Assembly: GCA_026394075.1 (NCBI GenBank)
Contig: JAPKYX010000077.1
Span: 20,313 to 53,949 of the forward strand
Direction of reading: 5' to 3'
DNA length: 33,637 nucleotides
DNA from: Acidobacteriota bacterium
GTDB lineage: Bacteria; Acidobacteriota; Terriglobia; Bryobacterales; Bryobacteraceae
The notes beneath the pieces were generated by a model. That model ran no database searches. It saw nothing but the letters and a program-made list of their open reading frames with translations, and was not told where the DNA came from. Below, in pieces: positions 25,515-33,169 of this stretch (the first letter of the stretch is position 1; each line of letters starts with the position of its first letter). The position numbers and the translations under genes were made by a program.

Positions 25515-26111
25515 TTAGGCCGACTTGCGGCGCAACGCCAGCAGAGCCAGCGCGGCACCCGCCAGCGCGACTGTGGCCGGCTCCGGTATGTCCACCGCGA
25601 AGTTGTCGATGGCGAAGCCGTTCAACGGATCCTGCGAGGTATCCGGCGAGGCGAACGTGATCTTGATCGAGTTCACCGCAGCACCCTTGTATTTGTAGAG
25701 ACCCTCAGCAAACACCAGCGACTTCTGGGCATTGGCCTTTTCTTCTCCCACCTTATTGCCCCGCTCGTCATAGCGAGCCACCGTGATGGCATCCGCGACA
25801 TCACCAAAGAAGGTCAAGGTAAAGCCGAACTGGAAGTTATCCAGCGGGGAGCCGAACACGATCTCCAACACTTCGTCCTGATTGGGCTGGCCCACGATGG
25901 CCGGTCCATTCAGATAGAGCGCCTGGGGAGGGCCGCCAAAGTTGTACTGCGCATCCACCTGCGAACTGAACGTGAAGTCATAGCCGTTCTTGCTGACCGT
26001 CAAACCGTTCACGGTTTGCTGGGAAACCTCATCCATCGTCAGCACGACGCCGCCCCACATCGATACCGAAGTCAGGGCGAAGGTGAGGAGTGTAAAGAAT
26101 AGTCTTGTCAT
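25515..26111 (-). CDS. PEP-CTERM sorting-domain exported protein
   Basis: The 198-residue product has an N-terminal signal (about residues 1-20, RLFFTLLTFALTSVSMWG) and a C-terminal PEP-CTERM module: IPEPATVALAGAALALLALRRKSA, meaning Pro-Glu-Pro, a hydrophobic helix and a basic end. PEP-CTERM proteins are processed by an exosortase, which is not in this window. The middle is beta-rich and of unknown function; it contains FQFGFTLTFFGDVADAITVARYDERGN. AGGA lies about 7 bases before the ATG, and the palindrome at 26124-26135 is just upstream. Confidence 0.88.
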   Translation of the reverse strand: MTRLFFTLLTFALTSVSMWGGVVLTMDEVSQQTVNGLTVSKNGYDFTFSSQVDAQYNFGGPPQALYLNGPAIVGQPNQDEVLEIVFGSPLDNFQFGFTLTFFGDVADAITVARYDERGNKVGEEKANAQKSLVFAEGLYKYKGAAVNSIKITFASPDTSQDPLNGFAIDNFAVDIPEPATVALAGAALALLALRRKSA

Positions 26112-28363: not shown

Positions 28364-28381
28364 GTCATCCAAAGGGATGGC
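28364..28381. terminator. hairpin between gpmA and the DUF6265-like gene
   Basis: GTCATCC (28364-28370) pairs with GGATGGC (28375-28381), including one G-T pair, across an AAAG loop. It sits between two converging genes. No T-tract follows on either strand, so termination is uncertain. Confidence 0.35.
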
Positions 28382-28839
28382 TATTCGTGGCAAGCAGTGC
28401 GCTTGTACGGATAGTTCATCCCTTTTTTGCTGTCTGCTGATTCGACGCGTGCCGACAGTCCGTCGGGTGTTGCGCGATAGATGATGCGCTGCGGAAAGTC
28501 GTGCGCCAAATTCTCGAAGACGGCTTCCTCGGCCGTCACCTTGGTGGCGGTGAAGACGGTGTCTCGGCCTTTGATGGTAGGGATGTCCTCGGCCGTCACC
28601 TTGGTGGCGGTGAAGACGGTGTCTCGGCCTTTGATGGTAGGGATGTAGGCGAGCACTCCATCGCGCGGTTCGATGCGAAGGTACTCATACCCGGCGGTCT
28701 TCCCCGCCCGTTCCGTTTGGCTATGCCCCAACATCATGCCACCCAACGGCCGGCTCCAGACTTCCAGGACCGTCGTGCCTCGCCCTTCCGCCTGCCAGCA
28801 ACCAGTCAGAAACTTCAACAGCAGCAACATTTCAGCCAT
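28381..28839 (-). CDS. DUF6265-like protein carrying a 20-residue internal duplication
   Basis: The 152-residue product resembles DUF6265: LTGCWQ, EVWSRPLGGMMLGHSQT, GYEYLRIEPRDG, VFENLAHDFPQRIIYRATPDGLSARVES. An in-frame stop lies 12 bases before ATG 28839, so there is no longer start and no signal peptide. The segment IPTIKGRDTVFTATKVTAE occurs twice in a row, from a perfect 60-bp DNA duplication (28526-28645). It would add a second copy of one strand region, so the fold may be altered. The function of DUF6265 is unknown. The neighbouring genes are unrelated. Confidence 0.75.
   Translation of the reverse strand: MAEMLLLLKFLTGCWQAEGRGTTVLEVWSRPLGGMMLGHSQTERAGKTAGYEYLRIEPRDGVLAYIPTIKGRDTVFTATKVTAEDIPTIKGRDTVFTATKVTAEEAVFENLAHDFPQRIIYRATPDGLSARVESADSKKGMNYPYKRTACHE
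28526..28645. repeat. perfect 60-bp tandem duplication
   Basis: Bases 28526-28585 and 28586-28645 are identical (2 x 60 bp), with no mismatches. The unit is a multiple of three, so the reading frame is kept. It may be recent replication slippage or an assembly artefact. Confidence 0.95.
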
Positions 28840-28986: not shown

Positions 28987-29445
28987 TTACAGCTTCGGCA
29001 GGATGACGCTGTCGATCACGTGGATCACGCCATTGGAGGTCTCGATGTCAGCCTTCACAACCTTGGCCTTGTCGATCGTCACGCCACCGGCGGTGGCCAG
29101 CGTAGCGGACTGACCATTCACGGTCTTTACCTTGCCAGCCTTGACGTCCTTGGCCATCACTTTGCCGGCAACCACGTGGTACAGCAGCACCTTCTTCAGC
29201 TTTTCCTTGTCCTTGCCCAGCATTTCCAGCGTCGCGGCCGGAACCTTGGCGAAGGCTTCATCGGTGGGCGCGAACACGGTGAACGGGCCAGCGCCCTTCA
29301 AGGTGTCCACCAAGCCGGCATCGCCGACCAGCTTCACCAAAGTCTTAAAGCTGCCCGCGGCCACCGCGGTGTCCACAATGTCAGCCGCAGCGGAGAGACC
29401 AGCAAAGGCCATCAAACCCGCGAACATCAGAGCAAAACGCTTCAT
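28987..29445 (-). CDS. fasciclin (FAS1) domain exported protein
   Basis: The 152-residue product has a signal peptide (about residues 1-21, [21 protein letters not shown]) followed by one FAS1 domain: [57 protein letters not shown], and [17 protein letters not shown]1 proteins are secreted or surface-bound and often aid adhesion; the function here is not shown. AAGGAG lies 8 bases before the ATG, the best Shine-Dalgarno in this part. A terminator follows at 28932-28960 and a TATAAC -10-like box precedes it (minus strand, 29464-29469). Confidence 0.92.
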
Positions 29446-29510: not shown

Positions 29511-30545
29511 CTAATTATTTTTGGAAGAATCGCTTTTCTTGGCCGGTGGCACCACCACCGTCACCGTGCCGCGCTGCGCGGAGGCATATTCGCCCCGCAG
29601 CCGGAAACCGACGCGCAGGTCACCTTGCGGTCGCGGGAACTCATGCCGTCCGGAGCGCAGGCGGTCCAGCGGCAACTCATAGTCAATGCCGTTAATCCGC
29701 AGCTCCACGCCGGTCGCACCCGATAGAAAACCCACCGAAGGATTCCAGCTCACCGTGACCGAGCGGGCGTCCGTATAATCAACAGCCAGCCGGACCGGGC
29801 GGTCCAGCGCAAGGAACGTCGCGCCCGCGACGGCCGCCACCGCCGCCAAGAAGGCCGCCACTCTCGGCACGGCCGACCGGATCACCATCCAGCGCGAACG
29901 TGCCGCGCCCGTGGAGGGCGGTACCAGAGGAACATGCGGCGAAGAAGCGGTGGGCACGGTATCGGAGGCTACGGTCGCGGGGGGCACCTGGATATCCAGC
30001 TTCTCTAGCTCAGGAGCCATCAATTCAAATTGCACGCCACGGTTTGACGCGGCCCGGTCCGGCCCAGCGGGATCCGGGGCTGATTGCGGCGGTCCCGGCC
30101 GGTAGTGGATCAGGGCAGCCGCCACCGGACGCTGGGTGGAGGGTCGCAGGATCAGCGCCAGCGCACCCTTCTTGCCGAAGATCGCCTCGCAGGCCTCACC
30201 ATCTTCGGGCGACAGAGCGGCCATGCCGCGCGTCCTTGAGCGGAACCAGCCGATCGGCTTCAGCGTGCGCAAATCGAGGTCACTCATCCAATCGCTGACC
30301 ATTCCCTTGGCCACCGCCAGTTCCCCGGGCGGCAGCGGAACGGCCGGGCGGGAGGGATCCTCCCGGGGCAGTTCCCGCCACGCAAGAATACGCCAGCGGG
30401 TATTGGAAGCCCGGCCGTAGAGAATGCCCGCGATCTCGCCGCCAATGGGCGATTGCGCTTCGTAGGCCTCCATCACGCGGAGGCGCAGTTGCTCCATCGC
30501 CGTTCCGTCCCAATCCACCGGCTTGCCATTCACGCTCAGCGACAT
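29511..30545 (-). CDS. single-pass membrane protein with degenerate MPN/JAMM-like domain
   Basis: The 344-residue product has an N-terminal MPN-like domain (about residues 15-150): GGEIAGILYG with Glu37, and IGWFRSRTRGMAALSPED. In true JAMM proteases the second segment is H-x-H-x7-S-x2-D. Here the spacing is exact (Ser112, Asp115), but both histidines are arginine (Arg102, Arg104), so metal-dependent cleavage is unlikely. A linker, one transmembrane helix (about 226-246) and a C-terminal beta-rich segment (SVTVSWNPSV, ELRINGIDYELP) that resembles an FN3-like fold follow. The start has weak TAGGCGA upstream. The gene ends 65 bases before the fasciclin start. A pseudo-enzyme with a scaffold role is my inference. 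Confidence 0.75.
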   Translation of the reverse strand: MSLSVNGKPVDWDGTAMEQLRLRVMEAYEAQSPIGGEIAGILYGRASNTRWRILAWRELPREDPSRPAVPLPPGELAVAKGMVSDWMSDLDLRTLKPIGWFRSRTRGMAALSPEDGEACEAIFGKKGALALILRPSTQRPVAAALIHYRPGPPQSAPDPAGPDRAASNRGVQFELMAPELEKLDIQVPPATVASDTVPTASSPHVPLVPPSTGAARSRWMVIRSAVPRVAAFLAAVAAVAGATFLALDRPVRLAVDYTDARSVTVSWNPSVGFLSGATGVELRINGIDYELPLDRLRSGRHEFPRPQGDLRVGFRLRGEYASAQRGTVTVVVPPAKKSDSSKNN

Positions 30546-30657: not shown

Positions 30658-31905
30658 ATGCACGGATGGTTCCTTTTCTATACAACCGCCGGTTTGGCGG
30701 TGGACTCCATGAAAGCGCACAAGTTGCGCACCTTTCTGACACTGCTAGGTGTCTTGATTGGGGTTCTTAGTGTCGTGCTGGTGGGCGCGGCGATTGAAGG
30801 GCTGGGAGTCACGGCCAGCGAGATTACCTCCAAGGCCTTCGGCACCGAGACCTACTTGATCGCGCAGATCGCCTCGCCCGGCGGCCTCAGCCGGCGGCAG
30901 GTGTTCGAGAAGCTGCGCAAGAACAAGCAGATCCGCAAGGAGGATCTGGCGCACCTGCGGATGATTACGGGCGACCAGATCCTCTACAGCCCCTATCAGC
31001 AGCGCCCCGAGGATGTGAAGTCCGGCGAGCGGACCTTTGAAGGAGCCATCATCATCGGTGTCGCGGCCGCGCTAGCTGACATACGCGACGTCGCCGTGGC
31101 CGATGGACGCTTCTTCACGGACCAAGAAGAACAGACGCGACAGCAGGTCTGTGTGATCGGCGAGGATCTGCGCATCGCCTTCTTCGAGGGCACATCACCC
31201 ATCGGTAAGACCATCAAGGTGCGGGGCTATGACTTCCGCATCGTCGGCGTGCAGGAGAAGCTGGGGTCTAGTTTTGGCCGCACCCAGGACAATTCGGTCT
31301 ATATGCCCGCCGCTGTGTATGCCCGGCTTTATGGCTATCCCGCGACGATGTCGATCTTTGGCCGCCCGCGCGCGGGCACCGGACTTACCCTGGACACCAG
31401 CCTGGATGTCACGCGTGTGGCCTTGCGGTCGCGCTTCCGCGCCAAGCCCGGTGCGGACGATCCGTTTGAGTTTTTGACGCCGGATTCCATCCGGGGTTTT
31501 GTCGACAACATCCTGGGGTTGATCAGCGTCGTGGTGGTACCAGTGACGATGATCTCGCTGGTCGTGGGCGGCATCGTGATCATGAACATCATGCTGGTCT
31601 CAGTCACGGAACGGACCCGTGAGATTGGCGTGCGCAAGTCACTCGGCGCCCGGTCCAACGACATCCTTTTGCAGTTCCTGATGGAATCGCTGATCGTGTC
31701 CGGAGCTGGGGGCATGCTGGGGTTGGCGTTTGCGGCGGTGCTGTGCGAGATATTGAGCCAGGCATTTGGCGCGGCGCTCAAGATCACGACGCCTTACGTT
31801 TTCCTGGCGATCTTTGTGTCTTCGGCCACGGGCGTCATCAGTGGCTGGTATCCGGCGCGCCGCGCCGCGCGGCTCGATCCAGTGGAAGCGCTCCGCGCGG
31901 AATAG
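30658..31905 (+). CDS. MacB/FtsX-type ABC transporter permease
   Basis: The 415-residue product has the MacB-type permease layout: an N-terminal helix (HKLRTFLTLLGVLIGVLSVVLV, about residues 20-41), a large periplasmic domain (about 45-280; GRFFTDQEEQTRQQVCVIGEDL, VRGYDFRIVGV), then three helices with the FtsX signature NIMLVSVTERTREIGVRKSLGARSNDILLQFLMES. The final segment is WYPARRAARLDPVEALRAE. Such permeases need a separate ATPase, which is not adjacent. ATG 30658 gives the expected lead-in; ATG 30709 (SD-like GGTGGA) is the alternative. The second permease follows 13 bases later. Confidence 0.93.
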   Translation: MHGWFLFYTTAGLAVDSMKAHKLRTFLTLLGVLIGVLSVVLVGAAIEGLGVTASEITSKAFGTETYLIAQIASPGGLSRRQVFEKLRKNKQIRKEDLAHLRMITGDQILYSPYQQRPEDVKSGERTFEGAIIIGVAAALADIRDVAVADGRFFTDQEEQTRQQVCVIGEDLRIAFFEGTSPIGKTIKVRGYDFRIVGVQEKLGSSFGRTQDNSVYMPAAVYARLYGYPATMSIFGRPRAGTGLTLDTSLDVTRVALRSRFRAKPGADDPFEFLTPDSIRGFVDNILGLISVVVVPVTMISLVVGGIVIMNIMLVSVTERTREIGVRKSLGARSNDILLQFLMESLIVSGAGGMLGLAFAAVLCEILSQAFGAALKITTPYVFLAIFVSSATGVISGWYPARRAARLDPVEALRAE

Positions 31906-31918
31906 GACAAGGGACCCC

Positions 31919-33169
31919 ATGCAAATCACCCCCAGCGAAAATCTACGGATGGCGATTGAGGCCGTCTGGACCAACCGCTTCCGCAGCCTGCTGACCATCT
32001 TGGGAATCGTCATCGGCATCACCACGGTGGTGACCGTGGCCAGCCTGCTGACCGGGCTCCGCAAAGGCATCGTCACTTTCTTCCAGGAGTTCGGACCGGA
32101 CAACATCTTCGTGGCACGATTTTCGGGCGACCCCGGCTCCCAGGGCACACCGAAGGAAGCCAAGCGTCGCCCCTTGCGGCCTGAATACGCCGACCTGATC
32201 CGGCGTCTGTCGCCATCGGTGGAGGACGTGTCGATCCAGATGTTCGTACCCGGCAACGTCGGCAACCGGCCGATCACGGCCAAGGTACCGGGCTTCGAAT
32301 CGGACAATGTCAGCCTGGTGGGCCAGACCGCCAACTCCATCCAGATCCAGCCGCGCGAGTTCCGCGAAGGCCGCTACTTCACGCAGGAGGAGGAGAACCG
32401 CGCACTGCGGGTGGCCGTCATCGGTCCTTTGCTGGCCGACGTCTTGTACCCTGACGGCAATGCCGTCGGGCGAACGTTCATCATTGATGGCGCGGAGTAC
32501 ACCGTAATCGGAGTGACGGCCAAGGCCAAGGGCGGATTTTTCGGAGAGAACGGCATTGACCGTCAGGCCACCGCACCACTGGCCACCATCCGCCTACGCT
32601 ATCCGCAACTCGACCGGTTTTTCATCACCGTCAAAGCCAAGCCGACCCTGCGTGATTCCGCCTTTGAGGAAGCCCGGGCCACTTTACGCAAGATCCGGCG
32701 CGTGCCCAACGGCGTCGATGACGACTTCAGCATCACCACGCCGGACTCCATCATTAAGCAGTTCGACACCATCACTGGCCTGATCGTCCTGGTCTCGATC
32801 GCCATTTCCGGACTGGGTCTGCTGGTGGGCGGCATTGGCGTGATGAACATCATGCTGGTCTCCGTAACGGAACGCACCAAAGAGATCGGGATTCGTAAAG
32901 CGTTGGGCGCGCGGCGGTTCGACATTGTCAGCCAGTTTCTGATCGAGGCCATCGCCCTGACGGGGGTGGGCGGAATTCTGGGAATTGTCATCTCGATTGC
33001 GGTGACGGCGCTGGTCAGCGCGCTGGTACCCTCTCTGCCGTCTGAAACGCCGTCCTGGGCGATCGTCGCGGGGCTGGGCGTTTCGGTCGCCGTGGGACTG
33101 TTTTTCGGAGTTTGGCCGGCCACCAAGGCGTCGCGCCTGGATCCGGTGGAAGCGCTCCGGTACGAATAG
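31919..33169 (+). CDS. MacB/FtsX-type ABC transporter permease, second of a pair
   Basis: ATG 31919 follows the previous stop by 13 bases, with AAGGG 5 bases before it; the longer frame from 31766 reads through the previous gene. The 416-residue product repeats the same layout: first helix RFRSLLTILGIVIGITTVVTV, a periplasmic domain (about 55-300), then three helices with NIMLVSVTERTKEIGIRKALGARRFDIVSQFLIEA and the end WPATKASRLDPVEALRYE. It is a paralogue of the preceding permease, so they may form a heterodimer. No ATPase or adaptor gene is adjacent. Substrate is unknown. Confidence 0.93.
   Translation: MQITPSENLRMAIEAVWTNRFRSLLTILGIVIGITTVVTVASLLTGLRKGIVTFFQEFGPDNIFVARFSGDPGSQGTPKEAKRRPLRPEYADLIRRLSPSVEDVSIQMFVPGNVGNRPITAKVPGFESDNVSLVGQTANSIQIQPREFREGRYFTQEEENRALRVAVIGPLLADVLYPDGNAVGRTFIIDGAEYTVIGVTAKAKGGFFGENGIDRQATAPLATIRLRYPQLDRFFITVKAKPTLRDSAFEEARATLRKIRRVPNGVDDDFSITTPDSIIKQFDTITGLIVLVSIAISGLGLLVGGIGVMNIMLVSVTERTKEIGIRKALGARRFDIVSQFLIEAIALTGVGGILGIVISIAVTALVSALVPSLPSETPSWAIVAGLGVSVAVGLFFGVWPATKASRLDPVEALRYE

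Follow-up and report, generated by a model that had tools for sequence, protein, structure and literature searches.

The gene at positions 29511 to 30545 of the window (the whole stretch of DNA that was analyzed, 33,637 nucleotides from an Acidobacteriota bacterium of the family Bryobacteraceae) encodes a protein in which an MPN domain is followed by a linker, a single transmembrane helix, and an Fn3-like domain. Both of the histidines that bind the metal in JAMM proteases are replaced by arginine. We think that the product is probably a transmembrane pseudo-protease that has been kept by selection and whose groove docks an anionic partner at the inner membrane. An initial annotation, made from the DNA alone, had already called it an MPN domain without either JAMM histidine, and the reading frame, the residues Glu37, Arg102, Arg104, Ser112, and Asp115, and the H-x-H-x7-S-x2-D spacing that it gave are all correct. 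Our analysis goes further in that inactivation recurs across an entire family of transmembrane MPN proteins, and the locus of the window gene has HxH orthologues in other genomes. The gene and the parts of its product are as follows:

29511-30545, minus strand: MPN-TM-Fn3-like protein of 344 amino acids with an ATG start (from the ORF, homologues, and the structure model)
30096-30545, minus strand: N-terminal MPN domain, residues 1-150, predicted to be cytosolic (from pLDDT, Foldseek and VIA, and JAB matches in 22 of 30 homologues)
30435-30437, minus strand: Glu37, in the column of the JAMM catalytic glutamate, kept (from the alignment)
30201-30251, minus strand: JAMM loop from G99 to D115 (GWFRSRTRGMAALSPED), with Ser112 and Asp115 kept (from the alignment)
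30240-30242 and 30234-30236, minus strand: Arg102 and Arg104, respectively, which stand in for both JAMM histidines
29895-30095, minus strand: Pro/Ala-rich linker, residues 151-217, which evolves fast and is mostly modeled with low confidence
29808-29894, minus strand: single transmembrane helix, residues 218-246, with a predicted N-in orientation
29544-29804, minus strand: Fn3-like beta-sandwich, residues 248-334, predicted to be periplasmic (from the model, Foldseek, and VIA)

We define the Bryobacteraceae MPN-TM-Fn3 family here by an MPN domain, a single transmembrane segment, the C-terminal domain, and an S-x-T-R loop, and the window protein has all four.

Comparison of the whole window protein to the Pfam model for JAB (PF01398) gave 15 bits (E = 0.023), and the MPN domain alone gave 18.3 bits (E = 0.0021), which is still below the gathering cut-off of 22.5. 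The homologues are more readily recognized: at E = 0.01 or better, JAB matches 22 of 30 aligned homologous domains (best E = 2.6e-11) and Prok-JAB (PF14464) matches 15 of the 30. When the full-length protein was searched against PDB sequences, it returned chance-level matches only (E = 0.78 and worse), and no NCBIfam model scored above its cut-off for five members of the family. Structure prediction, which the initial annotation had proposed as a check, recovered the MPN fold. In the AlphaFold model (pLDDT 84.2; built on 48 sequences from an alignment that is rich in HxH homologues), residues 1-150 form an alpha/beta MPN domain, residues 218-246 a transmembrane helix, and residues 252-330 a beta domain, so the membrane anchor and the beta-rich C-terminus that had been noticed earlier are both present. 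Every ten-residue block of the MPN domain has a pLDDT of 90 or more. When the model was compared to the PDB with Foldseek, the best matches included MPN chains of Rpn11 and Rpn8 (from E = 3.9e-6), and VIA aligned it to 4ocl_E with Z = 13.2 (158 residues aligned, rmsd 4.7). A Rpn11 homologue from Caldiarchaeum, BRCC36-type proteins, and CSN6 are also among the best matches. The relation of the window protein to MPN domains is not due to chance.

The C-terminal domain, modeled alone, has a pLDDT of 82, and its best Foldseek matches are Fn3 domains (E = 4.4e-3; by VIA, Z = 9.4 over 87 residues, rmsd 2.4). The fn3 model is absent from the 14 Pfam families listed at up to E = 1 for the C-terminal domains of 39 members, and no single Pfam model hit more than one of these 39 domains. 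We also considered whether this domain is shared with other proteins, which might have hinted at its function, and rejected the idea: in the 30 loci examined (of 45 listed), it always occurs with an MPN domain in the same frame, with one exception (L267), which is cut at the end of the locus and whose gene does have an MPN domain in L217.

The register of the loop is clear from the alignment of the 30 homologous domains. The window protein has I98-G-W-F-R102-S-R104-T-R-G-M-A-A-L-S112-P-E-D115, with E37 upstream, and those ungapped columns have the consensus GWFHSHTRS...LS..D, which is the JAMM signature; the loop of the homologues is mostly GW[FY]HSHTRS..LS..D. Because the homologues carry HxH at the aligned columns, Arg102 and Arg104 occupy the positions of the metal ligands. 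These columns are flanked by G99 (100% conserved), S103, and T105-R106. Of the features of an active JAMM (MPN+) site, the window protein holds the catalytic glutamate, the serine, and the metal-binding aspartate (E37, S112, and D115); in place of the H-x-H ligands, it has R102 and R104, as do all three genomes of the genus. The initial annotation had called for a survey of RxR and HxH among homologues. HxH is found at the same columns in 84 of 227 distinct domains, a set from which identical copies and domains with fewer than 100 aligned positions were dropped and which was partly chosen by best score and by loop pattern. (In a smaller set, before further loci were added, it was found in 82 of 184.) The annotation had named two outcomes that would count against it, namely that the protein has no relation to MPN domains or that the segment is not the JAMM loop, and neither was borne out by HMMER, by AlphaFold with Foldseek and VIA, or by this survey.

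In the other 143 of the 227 domains, one or both histidines are gone, usually the first, and the losses include VxH (37 domains), RxH (35), and RxR (12). The rest of the site has fared unevenly. The column of Glu37 is glutamate in 95% of the 84 HxH domains and in 91% of the 143 domains that lost a histidine. In those 143, the column of Asp115 is aspartate (83%) or glutamate (14%), and the frame of the loop is largely intact (Ser103 in 89%, Thr105 in 73%, and Arg106 in 82%). Gly107 is common to all 12 RxR domains. In contrast, the signature serine (the column of Ser112) is present in 88% of HxH domains but in just 20% of the domains that lost a histidine (threonine in 32%) and in 33% of RxR domains. 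Because this serine is often lost, and because the column of Glu37 is aspartate in 2 of the 12 RxR domains, the groove is not preserved as a whole. The groove residues that the family retains could be structural.

This pattern bears on a second explanation, which we consider possible although we do not favor it: the protein might be a structural scaffold whose MPN domain is a dimerization or assembly module with a ligand-free groove, and which spaces or pairs partners in the membrane. The first histidine is replaced by many different residues (V, R, I, L, C, or A) and the signature serine is often missing, as might be expected of a scaffold, and the closest folds include the MPN- subunits Rpn8 and CSN6. 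However, the glutamate and the aspartate are kept in most of the inactive members, and, as described below, arginine is conserved at the first position in some parts of the family.

The MPN gene lies among the following genes:

28987-29445, minus strand: FAS1 (fasciclin) protein, PF02469 with E = 1.9e-39, probably secreted (by eye)
30658-31905, plus strand: MacB-type permease 1 (MacB1), PF12704/PF02687, divergent from the MPN gene and 112 bp from it
31919-33169, plus strand: MacB-type permease 2 (MacB2), PF12704/PF02687; the start at 31919 was inferred from a 416-amino-acid ORF in L034, and the ORF list gives 31766

The FAS1 gene lies 65 bp downstream of the MPN gene in the same direction. The other neighbors that we scanned encode a DUF6265 protein, a phosphatase, enolase, and others. 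(The DUF6265 protein is at 28381-28839 on the minus strand, and a PEP-CTERM protein is at 25515-26111, also on the minus strand.) We surveyed other genomes by targeted searches with the window's own neighbor genes, and we assigned a locus to the MacB/FAS1 niche if a divergent MacB-type permease lay within 3.5 kb and shared more than 50% identity with that of the window, and/or if FAS1 followed. This yielded 25 loci, of which 6 encode HxH, 9 VxH, 8 RxR (including the window's), 1 AxH, and 1 IxH. The orthologues of MacB1 at these loci are 56-100% identical to the window's, while the 15 other matches to MacB1 in the window genome are only 27-41% identical (the 41% is over just 118 residues, and the best full-length match is 36%). 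This implies that these are instances of one locus and not chance adjacency to a common gene. In two genomes from another genus with RxR, the wider gene order resembles that of the window: enolase, a phosphoglycerate-mutase-like protein (by eye), FAS1 (one of two), MPN, an aldo/keto-reductase-like protein (by eye), MacB1, and MacB2.

FAS1 is adjacent to the MPN gene in 14 of the 18 niche loci that lost a histidine and could be tested, and in none of the 6 HxH loci (whose downstream flanks span 663-1333 bases), but this bias is only suggestive because the loci are related and because 3 of the 14 entered the niche by FAS1 alone. The loci with this arrangement are L008, L212, L319-L327, and RxR loci. 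The closest named relative of the window protein (88% identical in the MPN domain) is from L034, a Bryobacteraceae MAG, in which a SPOR protein, a radical-SAM lipoyl-synthase-like protein, and Lnt are encoded beyond the permeases. These neighbors suggest an envelope setting.

To trace the losses, we relied on a tree of MacB1 because the tree of the MPN domain itself (184 rows, with the columns of the loop left out) is poorly resolved, with 91 of 181 inner branches open, and because the two RxR genera have long branches that meet in it. On that MPN tree, intact versus lost sites require 13 changes and RxR requires 4, of which well-supported branches force 2. In the MacB1 tree, the RxR genera join an HxH genome (L011) with support of 95/95. 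HxH versus lost sites require three changes on this tree (well-supported branches force two) and RxR requires one; a single origin of RxR is found in 58% of bootstraps, and one and two origins are indistinguishable. These counts assume that the permease and the MPN gene travelled together and that HxH was lost rather than gained. They cover the niche loci except for five of the 25 (L005, L008, L212, L221, and L250, whose MacB1 was short, absent, or not entered), and L095 is unscored, as its permease is about 6 kb from its MPN gene. If the changes are read as losses, then the active-type site would have been lost more than once at the MacB/FAS1 locus. The ancestor of the window protein was most likely a metal-competent (HxH) form encoded at this MacB-linked locus.

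Did the protein lose its metal site because it was no longer needed? It does diverge quickly: it is 76% and 64% identical within the genus, as compared to 95-100% for MacB1, FAS1, the phosphatase, and enolase, and of the neighbors compared, only the DUF6265 protein (71-73%) evolves about as fast. Nevertheless, the open reading frame is intact in all three genomes of the genus, and dN/dS (by NG86) is 0.08-0.10 for the MPN domain, 0.26-0.41 for the linker, 0.25-0.53 for the transmembrane part, and 0.19-0.32 for the C-terminal domain, although these values are rough, since some pairs are close to saturation at synonymous sites. Furthermore, residues 95-115 show no amino acid changes at all among the three genomes, while 13 of the 19 codons for residues 97-115 differ synonymously; for instance, Arg104 is encoded by AGG, CGG, or CGC. 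Just 7 of the 134 segments of 17 residues in the MPN domain are fully invariant, and five of these are in this loop region. The arginines of the RxR loop are under constraint, as judged from these codon comparisons. The low dN/dS of the MPN domain, together with a loop that is invariant despite synonymous change, indicates a selected pseudo-protease and not a decaying gene. We consider decay to be hardly credible, especially as the family is nearly universal in Bryobacteraceae (see below). The window protein has an MPN fold, has lost its JAMM ligands, and is kept under selection, as in MPN- pseudoenzymes. The invariance of the RxR loop also suggests that the residues themselves matter, which counts against a scaffold with an empty groove.

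At least one member of the family (E = 1e-6 or better) is present in 148 of 150 sampled genomes of Bryobacteraceae and in 63 of 64 genera. Across the phylum, 17 of 297 sampled genomes have a match, three of which are themselves in Bryobacteraceae, so the family is rare outside of Bryobacteraceae. Among 14 loci from other families, the C-terminal domain is present in one (L108), the transmembrane segment is absent from 10 (by a hydropathy cut), and the loop, within the stretch examined, is HPGFG in 7. Similarly, we found the C-terminal domain in 23 of 41 genomes, namely in 23 of 25 from Bryobacteraceae and in none of 16 that belong to two further families in the order. Six loci (L004, L007, L010, L013, L020, and L029) encode an extra C-terminal stretch of about 100 residues (GR.IW.G.L...) behind a Pro-rich part. 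Also, a contig that is titled Bordetella parapertussis (L055, from a MAG bin) holds a gene that looks the same as those of L012 and L105 from Bryobacteraceae, so the Bordetella label is probably wrong.

Behind the MPN domain, a transmembrane-like stretch is found in 197 of 221 distinct members (6 of the 227 end too soon and were left out). Lysine and arginine are more common in the 15 residues before this stretch than in the 15 residues after it in 130 of the 197, less common in 22, and equally common in 45. By the positive-inside rule, this excess of basic residues before the helix implies that the MPN domain is probably cytosolic and that the Fn3-like domain is probably periplasmic.

A second MPN-TM-Fn3 clade is linked to rsmI. 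In all 32 loci that are divergent from rsmI, the first JAMM histidine is replaced by arginine; the second position is histidine in 21, asparagine in 8, glutamine in 2, and threonine in 1. The fixation of arginine at the first position is another argument against the scaffold explanation. The adjacency of rsmI in this niche also implies that the neighbors of the MPN genes may be incidental.

The window genome itself has a second membrane MPN protein (L032:928-2082, minus strand), which belongs to the rsmI niche and has R-x-H. Might the inactive protein instead form a heterodimer with an active MPN protein of its own cell, in the way that Rpn8 does with Rpn11 and CSN6 with CSN5? The fold is similar to those pairs, and besides the L032 protein, the window genome encodes one intact soluble JAMM, which is of a different kind from the membrane family:

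L335:1408-1824 (contig C39 of the window genome): intact soluble JAMM (GFFHSHPDEGAYFSSTD)
L335:1831-2904, same strand as the soluble JAMM: cysteine synthase (by eye)
L335:1142-1423, same strand as the soluble JAMM: MoaD/CysO-like Ubl of 93 amino acids, ending in SIAGGGR (by eye)

However, the L032 protein has also lost a histidine, and the soluble JAMM sits elsewhere, in a row of cysteine synthase and Ubl genes. This row resembles the operons of JAB, ThiS/MoaD-like, and cysteine synthase genes that are described by Iyer et al. (PMC1779556). In the window genome (96.9% complete), the membrane family is represented by the RxR and RxH proteins only, and we did not find a same-family MPN+ partner of the kind that Rpn8 and CSN6 have. 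More broadly, a census of 28 genomes identified 65 matches to the family, of which 7 have HxH (5 of these with the C-terminal domain), and 24 of the 28 genomes lack any HxH member. (These genomes were picked mainly by assembly quality and not at random, and the wider set is richer in HxH, with 84 of 227 as compared to 7 of 65.) An active sister does not seem to be required for function, and we reject an obligate MPN+/MPN- pair on the basis of this quality-selected census. We consider an MPN-/MPN+ heterodimer to be very unlikely.

Because both of the metal-binding histidines are arginine, the MPN domain should not hold the JAMM zinc, and we infer that the RxR domain has neither zinc nor peptidase activity. 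The protein has retained the fold, the glutamate and aspartate at the catalytic positions, and the frame of the loop. The former active-site groove now carries R-S-R-T-R, with the alternate arginines 102, 104, and 106 predicted to face the groove. On chemical grounds, these should make it strongly basic and fit for a carboxylate or another anion. We propose that the groove binds, without cutting it, a partner that bears a carboxylate or is anionic in some other way (for instance, the C-terminus of a protein). The initial annotation had suggested that a pseudo-protease of this layout may bind ubiquitin-like or other peptides. Indirect support for such binding may come from the glutamate, the aspartate, and the S-x-T-R that most inactive members keep (they do not keep the signature serine), and from the CysO-like Ubl that the window genome encodes elsewhere together with its own intact soluble JAMM. 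The flexible linker and the one transmembrane helix would join the cytosolic MPN domain to the Fn3-like domain, so that a docked partner might be held at the inner membrane and coupled to the periplasmic domain outside.

The same residues might conceivably support a different reaction, with an arginine-based active site whose substrate could be, for instance, a small molecule that is phosphorylated or anionic. Glu37 and Asp115 do remain beside Arg102, Arg104, and Arg106 in the window protein, and the presence of Gly107 in all 12 RxR domains looks like a coordinated change in the loop. On the other hand, the replacement of Glu37 by aspartate in 2 of the 12 RxR domains speaks against this, we did not recognize a metabolic operon around the gene, and we know of no precedent among MPN domains. 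We therefore view another catalytic activity as very unlikely. Overall, we judge docking of a cytosolic partner to be the most likely function, with a pure scaffold second.

A more speculative extension, which we put forward tentatively and think is much more likely to be wrong than right, is that the MPN proteins of Bryobacteraceae are transmembrane receptors or tethers. More than once at one locus, and across the rsmI-linked clade, the protease site might have given way to a docking groove lined by arginine or aliphatic residues. This groove would read the C-termini of proteins (perhaps a ubiquitin-like Gly-Gly tail, such as that of the CysO-like protein encoded in the window genome) and report or anchor them across the inner membrane. 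These proteins would be bacterial analogues of MPN- readers that act alone. A CysO-like tail as the ligand of the groove is a guess.

Whatever its ligand, this bacterial family has kept membrane MPN domains in 148 of 150 genomes but has given up the zinc site again and again. Its HxH and RxR orthologues, which occupy one locus, offer a natural pair for studying what MPN domains do besides cutting. The family also suggests that membrane proteins of bacteria that are annotated as JAB should not be assumed to be proteases.

In our searches of the open-access literature, and in passages of PMC1779556, we found no description of a membrane-anchored MPN family. At the level of Pfam, 22 of 30 homologues match JAB and 15 of 30 match Prok-JAB, while the window protein is below the cut-off for JAB. 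Among the scanned neighbors of the window gene, we found no Ubl, E1, or E2 gene, nor the linkage to Ubl, E1, or cysteine synthase genes that characterizes Mec+/Ubl-processing JAMM proteins.

The bacterial and archaeal JAMM proteases, among which we take Mec+/CysO and HvJAMM1 to belong (these two were compared by name), share the Glu, Ser, and Asp positions with the window protein, and PfJAMM1 (5ld9 and 5lda) and Cap3 (9ild) have the same fold (VIA Z = 12.1, 11.9, and 12.1, respectively). Unlike them, the window protein lacks both histidines, has no adjacent Ubl or E1 that we saw, and adds a membrane anchor and an extra domain. In eukaryotes, MPN- subunits are parts of large soluble complexes that also contain an MPN+ partner (Rpn8 with Rpn11 and CSN6 with CSN5), where they serve as dimerization or assembly modules. 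Like Rpn8, CSN6, and eIF3h, the window protein has an MPN fold without a working JAMM metal site. MPN- domains are thus a kind that is already known, and the window family is a variant: in contrast to Rpn8, CSN6, and eIF3h, the family has no HxH member in 24 of the 28 genomes examined, and the window protein is bacterial, with a transmembrane helix and an Fn3-like domain.
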